DNA from: Sphingorhabdus sp. YGSMI21
Lineage (GTDB): Bacteria; Pseudomonadota; Alphaproteobacteria; Sphingomonadales; Sphingomonadaceae
Assembly (NCBI RefSeq): GCF_002776575.1
Contig: NZ_CP022548.1
Coordinates: forward strand, 2,867,001 to 2,931,000
Direction: 5' to 3'
Length of the DNA: 64,000 nt
The position numbers were made by a program, and so were the translations under genes. Of this stretch, positions 43,592-55,533 are shown piece by piece (the stretch's first letter is position 1; each line of letters starts with the position of its first letter). A model generated the notes under the pieces. That model worked only from the letters and a program-made list of their open reading frames with translations. It ran no database searches and had not been told where the DNA came from.

Positions 43592-43683
43592 TCGTCATCC
43601 CGGACCTGATCCGGGATCCGGATCGGGCTGTCACGCTATCTGTGCCAGTCGCTCTGGATGCTGAACCCAGTTCAGCATGACGA
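43592..43683. repeat. Mosaic TCGTCATCC-type palindromic repeat
   Basis: The outer ends TCGTCATCC (43592-43600) and GCATGACGA (43675-43683) are inverted relatives. The two inner hairpins differ in sequence: CCCGGACCTGATCCGGG on the left and TGCTGAACCCAGTTCAGCA on the right. The copy looks like two halves from different subfamilies joined together. It lies between infB and rbfA. Confidence 0.7.
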
Positions 43684-44117: not shown

Positions 44118-44177
44118 TCGTCATCCTGAACTTGTTTCAGGACCTTCAGAGATCCTGAAACAAGTTCAGGATGACGA
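44118..44177. repeat. 60-bp perfect palindromic repeat (intergenic copy)
   Basis: Two perfectly complementary 25-base arms at 44118-44142 and 44153-44177 (beginning TCGTCATCCTGAACTTGTTT) surround a ten-base loop. The arms are identical to those of the copy inside truB (46513-46572), while the loop differs. It lies in the 86-base gap between rbfA and tdk. It may also act as a transcription or RNA-processing barrier. Confidence 0.92.
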
Positions 44178-45303: not shown

Positions 45304-46010
45304 CTGGTGACATAAATGGCTGGGCCAGGTCCGCTGAAGCTTGGATTGCCTCTATCGGCGAGGCTGGAGACTGGACCCGTCGCACCCTGCTTGATCAGGT
45401 CATGCTGGAAAGGGTAGCGCGACATAGCGGGACGGCTCTTGATATTGGGTGTGGGGAAGGGCGGTTCGTCCGGATGCTGAAGGAACAGGGCTGGAGCGCG
45501 GTCGGAATTGATCCGGTGGAACGCCTGATTGCCGAGGCCGGGAAGCACGACCCCGATGGAGACTATAAAATAGGTTTCGGCGAAGACCTCGCCTTTGAAG
45601 ACGAGAGTTTTGATCTGGTGGTCAGCTATTTGTCGCTGATCGATATCGAGGATTTTCGCGTCGCGATCAGGGAAATGACCCGCGTGACAAAGCCTGGCGG
45701 TTCGTTGTTGATCGCCAATCTGACCGGATATTTTACCGCGGGCAAATGGGTGCGCGGGCTTGACGGCCAACATAAAAGATTTGTAATTGACAATTACCAT
45801 CAGGAACGCGCGTCCCGGGAACAATGGTTGGGTATCGATATCCTGAACTGGCACCGCCCGTTGAGCGCCTATCTGCAGGAATTTCTGGCGAATGGTTTGA
45901 TCCTGCGCCATTTCGACGAACCCACTCCGCCGGATCAAAACGACCCGAAAAGTGATCGTTACAGCCGCGTTCCGGGCTTCGTCGTCATGGAATGGGAGAA
46001 GCCGGCGTGA
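45300..46010 (+). CDS. Class I SAM-dependent methyltransferase
   Basis: This 236-residue methyltransferase of the UbiE/type-11 kind has the SAM motif GTALDIGCGEGRFVRML, the acidic motif II VGIDPVERLIAEA, the motif IV-like FDLVVSYLSLIDIEDF and TKPGGSLLIANLTG. The ATG at 45300 overlaps the stop of the GNAT gene (ATGA). The C-terminus overlaps the truB start (GTGA). The substrate is unknown. It belongs to the inserted three-gene block between rbfA and truB. Confidence 0.88.
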   Translation: MTGDINGWARSAEAWIASIGEAGDWTRRTLLDQVMLERVARHSGTALDIGCGEGRFVRMLKEQGWSAVGIDPVERLIAEAGKHDPDGDYKIGFGEDLAFEDESFDLVVSYLSLIDIEDFRVAIREMTRVTKPGGSLLIANLTGYFTAGKWVRGLDGQHKRFVIDNYHQERASREQWLGIDILNWHRPLSAYLQEFLANGLILRHFDEPTPPDQNDPKSDRYSRVPGFVVMEWEKPA

Positions 46011-46999
46011 GGCCACATGGCTGGATCATATTGGATAAACCGCTGGAGCTTGGTTCGACGCAAGCGGTCGGGGCGGTTAAGCGGAATTTGCGAGAGGCCG
46101 GCTTGCTCGGGAAAGGCAAGAACAAGCTGAAGGTCGGGCATGGCGGGACGCTGGATCCGCTGGCGACCGGGGTCCTGCCGATTGCGCTGGGCGAAGCGAC
46201 CAAGCTGTGCGGACGGATGCTCGATGCGTCGAAGATTTATGAATTTACAATCGGCTTCGGGACGGAGACCGAGACGCTGGATGTCGAGGGGGCTGTGACG
46301 GAGACTTCTGGCCACCGGCCAACTTTGGCCGAAGTCGAAGCGATATTGCCGCAGTTCAGCGGGGCGATCGAGCAGATACCACCGAAATATTCGGCGCTGA
46401 AGATCGACGGCCAGCGCGCCTATGATCTGGCGCGGGCAGGGGTGGATGTGGAGATGAAGCTGCGGGGGGTGACGATATATGCTCTCGGCATTCGTGGTGT
46501 TGATAGTTCCATTCGTCATCCTGAACTTGTTTCAGGATCTCCGGAGGTCCTGAAACAAGTTCAGGATGACGAGCCACTGACAGAAATCACCCTCACGGCC
46601 AACGTCTCCAAAGGCACCTATATCCGCTCGCTTGCCCGCGACATCGCGCGGGCTCTGGGCACTTTCGGTCATGTCACCATGTTGCGCCGGACCAAGGCCG
46701 GGCCATTCACCCTGAAACAGGCGATTTCGCTGGACAAACTCAACGAAATTGGTAAGGGCGCGGACATTAAAGAATACCTCTTGCCGCTTGAGGCGGGGCT
46801 GGACGACATCCCGGCTTTCGACCTCGACCCTGATCAGGCAAGAATGCTTCGGCAAGGCTTGACGCTGGACGAGCAGGATTTGATCGGGAACCCCGCAGTC
46901 AACGGGCTTTTTCTAGCGACAGAGAATGAAGGTTCTCCGGTCGCTCTGGCAGAGATTGTTGATGGCACCGTCAAGGTGGTCCGCGGGTTCAATATGTAA
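46007..46999 (+). CDS. truB: tRNA pseudouridine(55) synthase TruB, with repeat-derived insertion
   Basis: TruB makes pseudouridine 55 in the tRNA T-loop. The catalytic Asp50 lies in VGHGGTLDPLATGVLPI; KYSALKIDGQRAYDLARAG and SKGTYIRSLARDIA are further family blocks, and the C-terminal domain follows. The start is GTG at 46007 (VRPHGWIILDKP), overlapping the previous stop; ATG at 45992 is the alternative. Residues about 169-189 (RHPELVSGSPEVLKQVQDDE) are encoded by a palindromic repeat and have no counterpart in normal TruB, yet the frame stays open and the remaining domain is intact. The gene is probably functional. Confidence 0.95.
   Translation: MRPHGWIILDKPLELGSTQAVGAVKRNLREAGLLGKGKNKLKVGHGGTLDPLATGVLPIALGEATKLCGRMLDASKIYEFTIGFGTETETLDVEGAVTETSGHRPTLAEVEAILPQFSGAIEQIPPKYSALKIDGQRAYDLARAGVDVEMKLRGVTIYALGIRGVDSSIRHPELVSGSPEVLKQVQDDEPLTEITLTANVSKGTYIRSLARDIARALGTFGHVTMLRRTKAGPFTLKQAISLDKLNEIGKGADIKEYLLPLEAGLDDIPAFDLDPDQARMLRQGLTLDEQDLIGNPAVNGLFLATENEGSPVALAEIVDGTVKVVRGFNM
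46513..46572. repeat. 60-bp perfect palindromic repeat inside truB, in frame
   Basis: The 25-base arms at 46513-46537 and 46548-46572 are perfectly complementary and identical to those of the copy at 44118-44177; the ten-base loops differ. Its length is exactly 20 codons. Of the three forward frames only the one used by truB is open through the element; the other two meet TGA. Confidence 0.95.
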
Positions 47000-55462: not shown

Positions 55463-55533
55463 CCGTTCGTCCTGAGCTTGTCGAAGGACAGTGTTCGGTC
55501 GAGAGGCGCACTTCGACAGGCTCAGTGCGAACG
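55463..55533. repeat. CCGTTCG-type palindromic repeat
   Basis: It runs from CCGTTCGTCCTGAGCTTGTC at the left end to AGTGCGAACG at the right end, with inner CTTCGACAGGCTCA inverted to the left half. It is the same family as 8455, 57474 and 57560. Confidence 0.85.

Follow-up and report, generated by a model that had tools for sequence, protein, structure and literature searches.

The window, as we call the whole stretch of 64,000 nucleotides from Sphingorhabdus sp. YGSMI21 that was analysed, contains the gene for tRNA pseudouridine synthase B (truB) with a short palindromic element inside its coding sequence and related elements upstream of it (families F1, F2 and so on are defined below):

45992..46999, + strand: truB (tRNA pseudouridine synthase B), 335 aa; open reading frame with the Pfam domains TruB_N and TruB_C_2, best fold match E. 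coli TruB (1k8w)
46513..46572, + strand: inverted (head-to-head) CGTC-REP dimer of 60 bp, in frame in truB, recognised by arm pairing and DNA fold
46513..46537, + strand: left arm, composed of T, the CGTC tag and the hairpin ATCCTGAA-CTTGT-TTCAGGA; an 8-bp stem is closed by the T that follows
46548..46572, - strand: right arm, which is the left arm in reverse complement; the base that follows leaves the outermost pair unclosed, giving a 7-bp stem
46493..46512, + strand: candidate degenerate half unit 5' of the element, proposed by eye; CGTCATCCTGAA-like half units lie there in L031-L033
44118..44177, + strand: intergenic 60-bp dimer copy with the same arms, between rbfA and a thymidine-kinase-like ORF
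43594..43679, + strand: mixed REP pair of one F2-like and one F1-like arm, between infB and rbfA

For the neighbours of the two intergenic elements, infB, rbfA and thymidine-kinase-like ORF are the gene names that we presume to apply. ORF 45992-46999 reads straight through positions 46513-46572, which amount to 20 codons, and its predicted translation across the element is RHPELVSGSPEVLKQVQDDE, 20 residues. Only one of the three forward frames over the element is free of stops, namely the frame used by truB, and the reverse strand likewise has one. A first-pass annotation of this DNA had described both the in-frame position and the single open forward frame correctly, as well as the identity of the arms in the intergenic copy at 44118-44177 with those in truB. 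Its term "60-bp perfect palindrome" is accurate for the 25-base arms, in which 25 of 25 bases pair, but not for the full 60 bp, where 29 of 30 pairs are formed. The DNA of the element folds with -30.5 kcal/mol compared to a mean of -6.3 for shuffled sequences (z -12.7; 0 of 200 shuffles reached as low a value), and a 23-base arm pattern has four occurrences in the window and none in 100 shuffles. In the left-arm hairpin, the stems ATCCTGAA and TTCAGGAT enclose the loop CTTGT, which results in an 8-bp stem starting with AT and a 5-base loop, and the unpaired tail after the left stem is CTC in the window copy and several others and CCA in L007. Three arms of another family, F6 (CTGAGC.TGTCGAAGG), are located elsewhere in the window, at 55472, 57483 and 57569.

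The repeat is dispersed over the whole genome of this strain (G000). With up to two mismatches, a 19-base core of the arm gave 52 matches (24 + 28) in 4.06 Mb and the reversed control gave none. In 21 element loci inspected in G000, which leave 17 of the 52 arms in other elements, 19 were inverted dimers, four of them 60 bp and the rest 76-90 bp long, and arm spacings revealed no further 60-bp pairs genome-wide. Two of the four 60-bp copies reside in Pfam-supported genes, truB and glyS, and other ORFs overlying elements in G000 had no Pfam match. The glyS copy (L019; G000:C1 about 3315944-3316003, minus strand) is also in frame and has a half unit in front of it (TRHPESD TRHPELVSG...), an arrangement also seen in L032 truB. 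The number of arm-core matches, which puts the arm well beyond the window, and the in-frame copies agree with the earlier view of a mobile or spreading element caught in a coding gene. In sister genomes, long ORFs over the element at candidate coding copies (L261-L266) were judged by inspection to be shadow ORFs or 5' extensions, L266 excepted; L264 also includes the truB of G001.

In the portion of Di Nocera et al. 2013 that is accessible (PMC3733652), CGTC REPs have a CGTC tag that is unpaired at one end, an 8-bp stem beginning with AT, a 5-base loop and a short unpaired tail, mostly CCA, and they mostly form inverted dimers. The window element shares the tag, the 8-bp AT stem, the 5-base loop and the dispersed inverted dimers, and is closest to CGTC-2. 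According to the same portion of the report (PMC3733652), the likeness extends to occurrence in alphaproteobacteria, intragenic copies encoding 20-30 aa, truB and tRNA synthetase genes as hosts and the lack of a flanking transposase, here at the Y1-transposase loci examined; it names no dedicated transposase for CGTC REPs. The first-pass annotation had assigned the element to a sphingomonad type different from that of Rickettsia, which has to be revised, as it instead fits the alphaproteobacterial CGTC REP super-family, of which R. conorii RPE-4 and RPE-6 are given as members in the accessible text (PMC3733652).

Filling of the TruB loop across the Sphingomonadaceae

For comparison among relatives, the TruB loop slice was defined as the residues bounded by the conserved Leu that follows R.VTI and by SKGTYIR. 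TruB sequences came from 80 named Sphingomonadales loci and from an even sample of genomes across the order (matches in 154 of 157), of which all 95 other Sphingomonadaceae and 14 of the 58 matching genomes of other families were covered (L122-L230). The slice comprised 16-21 residues in all 14 outgroup TruBs inspected (of the 58 matching) and 14 to 174 residues in Sphingomonadaceae. In the 93 parsed of 96 Sphingomonadaceae (even sample including G000), 31 slices contained elements, 34 were short, 26 had an Erythrobacter-type extension and two were classified as other. L179 was outside the parsed set but readable and has an F5-type insert, so that 32 of 94 readable genomes have elements; L190, cut by a contig end, and L195, with a damaged truB assembly, are outside these 94. 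The many short loops indicate that the segment is not one that all related TruB proteins carry.

Eight families of palindromes were distinguished in the TruB loop: F1 (CATNCTGAACTTGTTTCAG), to which the window element belongs, F2 (CATNCCGGACTTGATCCGG), F3 (GCGAAGGC hairpins), F4 (GGGGAGGGGGACC...GGTGGAGGGG), F5 (CCCCTCCCCTTCAGGGGAGGGG), F6 (CTGAGCTTGTCGAAGG), F7 (TCCTCTCCCCTTGAGGGAGAGGA) and F8 (GTTCGTGTCGAGC..., a single locus). By eye, these fall into about four unrelated groups, the CGTC-like F1-F3, F4, F5/F7 and F6/F8. At this turn, Erythrobacter-like TruBs (for example L067, L084 and L123) have an extension that is conserved but not palindromic, SAFATTAGRPDPYDPSAPLELAD, which is possibly an old domesticated insert, and elements of F3, F4 and F6 are located 5' of such an extension in L192, L194, L198 and L196. 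The longest slices measured 174 aa (L183) and 119 aa (L052), and the L183 loop contains tandem 21-bp units (RHPEATH repeats) made from the REP head.

In 167 TruBs, 139 arms of F1-F7 were inside the loop and none in the rest of the coding stretch examined, which comprised about 480 nt 5' and 370 nt 3' of the loop. Insertions in TruB_N did not exceed six residues net in 142 of 142 Pseudomonadota outside the Sphingomonadaceae, with matches spanning to the profile end; this set derives from a sample of 150 genomes, 149 with TruB_N, minus six Sphingomonadaceae and the degenerate G290. The restriction to Sphingomonadaceae is not absolute, because elements in truB of S. maltophilia and R. conorii are reported in the accessible text of PMC3733652. 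Around truB, 81 loci contained 150 arms: the truB loop accounts for 80, another 28 fall in ORFs, and 42 lie outside any accepted ORF. By inspection, two of these 28 belong to the truB loop of L060 and the remaining 26 fall within shadow ORFs or close to the end of an ORF, and no other sense gene with an interior arm was recognised in the 81 loci, a 163-aa ORF (L074 754-1243) being uncertain.

The content of the loop has changed frequently. On a quick TruB tree calculated with the loop excluded and without a mixture model, 60 changes among 13 loop states were counted, with 67 of 178 inner branches open; changes forced by the starred branches alone numbered at least eight for F4, seven for F1, five for F3 and five for F6. 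Before this analysis, L050 and L079 were relabelled from F1 to short (weak match) and L142, L156 and L162 from other to the Erythrobacter type, "+Ery" suffixes were dropped, and five loci were unparsed in the loop labelling (L060, L179, L190, L195, L222). Of 136 pairs whose flanks are at least 85% identical, many of them sharing rows, 54 differed in state. The sister TruBs of L138 (F5) and L187 (F4) are 95.5% identical in the flanks, and the window TruB (F1) and L042 (F4) 91.7%. In the truB loop of L035, an F4 element is reversed relative to its sister TruBs and the frame is still open: compared with L034, 109 of 125 columns match as reverse complement and 97 of 132 when both are read in one direction, and the flanks have 93.5% and 90% identity. 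The reversal may have come from inversion at the site or from a separate insertion.

Whole-genome repeat counts were made in 80 of the 96 genomes, which we picked (32 with and 48 without an insert), for all families except F5, F7 and F8. For the window's family and four others, the family in the loop is a dispersed repeat of its own genome. Counting the truB copy itself, F1 had 25-70 copies where it sits in truB (5 genomes) and a median of 1 elsewhere, F4 had 1-129 (12 genomes) and a median of 0 elsewhere, and host genomes contained 25-60 copies of F2 (3 genomes), 3-40 of F3 (5) and 2-134 of F6 (4). The family of the loop reached at least five copies in 26 of the 29 host genomes where it was counted; by the strict patterns used, G053 (1), G153 (2) and G111 (3) were the low-copy exceptions. 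In a label permutation over these 29 genomes, 0 of 20,000 permutations reached the observed fit between family labels and the genome's own repeats. The total repeat load had a median of 75 in the 32 genomes with an insert versus 8 in the 48 without (p 3e-10, with kinship kept in the comparison).

Loop structure, other host proteins and mobilisation

The AlphaFold2 model, based on 38 sequences (mean pLDDT 85), matches the fold of E. coli TruB with RNA (1k8w). Residues 171-188 have pLDDT values below 50 and fall between the strands 158-167 and 198-205; this predicts that the insert lengthens a beta-hairpin turn by a disordered stretch.

GlyS offers a second set of such sites. A search of 46 genomes located glyS in 44, and 29 of the 30 loci taken were readable. 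Arms at the NILKK site were detected by pattern in 10 of the 29, from the families F1, F3, F4, F6, F8 and F9 (GCTCCGCACTTGATGCGGAGC), and L240 and L260 have palindromes at this site outside the pattern matches. Further arm clusters were located near residues 208, 293-322 and 372-410. The F4 match among the ten, in glyS of L233, appears to be a chance match to GEEDP codons. For F6, which has 45 arms in G000, 30 loci were inspected and nine ORFs tested against Pfam. An Lhr-type helicase (L278 / P0002) contains two F6 palindromes in frame in its DEAD domain, between APTGAGKT and SPLKALAVD, and a PolIII-alpha protein (L289 / P0004), which we read as DnaE2-like, contains one in frame in the HHH region; the other seven F6-bearing ORFs of G000 had no Pfam match. 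Loops of this kind are thus not confined to TruB, and this speaks for tolerance rather than for a function specific to truB.

E. coli can do without truB, and for this reason "essential gene", as used by the first-pass annotation in likening the element to Rickettsia palindromic elements, suits glyS better than truB. The other part of that comparison, in-frame insertion, holds for the predicted translations of both truB and glyS. Rickettsia palindromic elements are described, in the parts of the sources available, as palindromic in-frame insertions in housekeeping genes, among them R. conorii truB (PMC10969869, PMC3733652), but also as being about 150 bp long and confined to one genus (PMC10969869), compared to the 60 bp here; the likeness is one of description.

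No F1 arms were present beside Y1 transposases at the ten loci examined of 14 PF01797 hits, which came from 8 of 15 genomes scanned, the own genome included, and a RAYT link for F1 was rejected on these grounds. G000 has four Y1_Tnp hits, and the two longer ones, which we take to be IS200-like from a motif, have no F1 arm nearby; one F6 arm was found near the PF01797 locus L117. With no F1 arms beside these transposases, no mobilising enzyme can be named. REPINs resemble the window element in that two inverted REPs form a hairpin, are dispersed and were proposed to move as a unit, but they are described as extragenic and tied to a neighbouring RAYT in the accessible text of Bertels and Rainey 2011 (PMC3116915). 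Their tag is of the GTAG type according to the accessible part of PMC3733652, whereas it is CGTC here, and the RAYT flanked by the same REP has no counterpart at the Y1 loci examined.

Origin and meaning of the insertions

What began as an observation on a single copy is part of a larger fact: several families have colonised this one loop time and again. We consider it highly probable that a REP dimer was copied into a tolerant turn of TruB, which eight families have entered repeatedly, and that the insert is a passenger loop, predicted to be disordered. An HUH-type transposase, working in trans on hairpins of single-stranded DNA, would have copied the CGTC-type, REPIN-like dimer into the beta-hairpin turn that links strands 158-167 and 198-205. 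Insertions would arise genome-wide, and their survival in a gene would require a length divisible by three, an absence of stops in the frame that is met and a loop that tolerates extra residues. The tolerance of the TruB turn would permit repeated entry by the palindrome families of repeat-rich Sphingomonadaceae, with replacement and, at least once, in the opposite orientation. The ribosome would unwind the hairpin in the mRNA, and the inserted peptide would be a passenger under weak or no constraint at the protein level, such that the reading frame may be the main filter on the palindromes sampled by the disordered loop.

A target in the truB turn that is recognised by the elements or their mobiliser would instead make the turn a true hotspot. 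The left junctions indeed cluster, in that 50 of 74 located heads (from 77 element-bearing loops) begin 3-8 nt past the conserved Leu codon and 31 exactly 6 nt after it, shared ancestry included; the clustered heads span F1, F2, F3 and F7, and no arms were found elsewhere in the TruB coding stretch examined. This clustering is more than permissiveness alone demands and would be compatible with target choice. However, the same spot is used by families with different heads (CCTCCCC, CGTTCG, TCCTCTCC and CGTC), several glyS loops of other sequence are used as well, the turn comprises only about seven residues, so that the tolerant window would be narrow anyway, and the counts are inflated by shared ancestry; we therefore regard sequence-directed insertion as unlikely. 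A microhomology of GTCACCCTC in native truB with the REP head was dropped, as GTCACCCTC, judged by eye, does not adjoin the junction.

It seems still less credible that the insert is kept by selection for a function, with the mRNA hairpin or the loop peptide regulating TruB, for example by stem-loop autoregulation. TruB binds RNA stem-loops (title of 1k8w), and REPs in several pseudouridine synthase genes were remarked on in the accessible part of PMC3733652. Moreover, synonymous divergence is lowered in the inserts, where pS was below that of the flanks in all five clades (e.g. 0.10 vs 0.38), which suggests that the inserted DNA is younger, homogenised or constrained and not simply neutral, a point that also weighs against the passenger reading. 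Against a function, family, length (up to the 174-aa slice), orientation and peptide vary between relatives, the loop is short in 34 of the 93 parsed Sphingomonadaceae, and the insert has a several-fold higher pN/pS, at 0.46-1.28 in four clades and 4.8 in a two-row clade where changes are few, than the flanks, at 0.04-0.24. One ancestral insertion that was inherited and diverged is refuted in our judgement: some clades share an element by descent, such as F7 in L044-L049 and L051, but the main groups have no common sequence, several of the 60 label changes are forced by starred branches, and the family in a loop accords with the repeats of its host genome. We judge an artefact of assembly or a non-coding ORF to be refuted as well, since TruB and both of its Pfam domains continue through the insert and inserts also occur in isolates and MAGs of relatives, even if the assembly of truB is damaged at the site in L195 and cut by a contig end in L190.

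REPs in truB are already known. They are reported for S. maltophilia, E. litoralis and S. alaskensis, together with RPE-1 in R. conorii truB, and host genes include truB, tRNA synthetase and DnaE2 genes (PMC3733652, as far as its text is accessible). The accessible text of that study concerns single species and different sites within a functional category, save for recB in two Xanthomonas (PMC3733652), and one loop filled by many families across a whole bacterial family, as in Sphingomonadaceae TruB, is absent from it as far as covered. We found no paper describing entry of one TruB loop by many families in the open-licence literature, largely at the level of titles and abstracts, and what appears to be new is the filling of the same turn by eight families across the Sphingomonadaceae.

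As a warning for the use of databases, hypervariable TruB and GlyS loops can be repeat-derived. With one loop, dozens of label changes and eight donor families, the TruB turn represents a replicated natural experiment on the conversion of selfish DNA into protein, in which short-loop relatives and closely related sisters make it possible to test insertion, frame filtering, turnover and tolerance to a degree out of reach for isolated RPE or REP cases. Tentatively, and as a possibility that we rate below even chances, the TruB turn and several GlyS loops may be family-wide sinks for selfish DNA, filled repeatedly from non-coding palindromes that are replaced and flipped among close species, and the persisting families would tend to be readable in frame in either orientation. 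If this reading is true, the loops would preserve a record, lineage by lineage, of the repeat families that were active.
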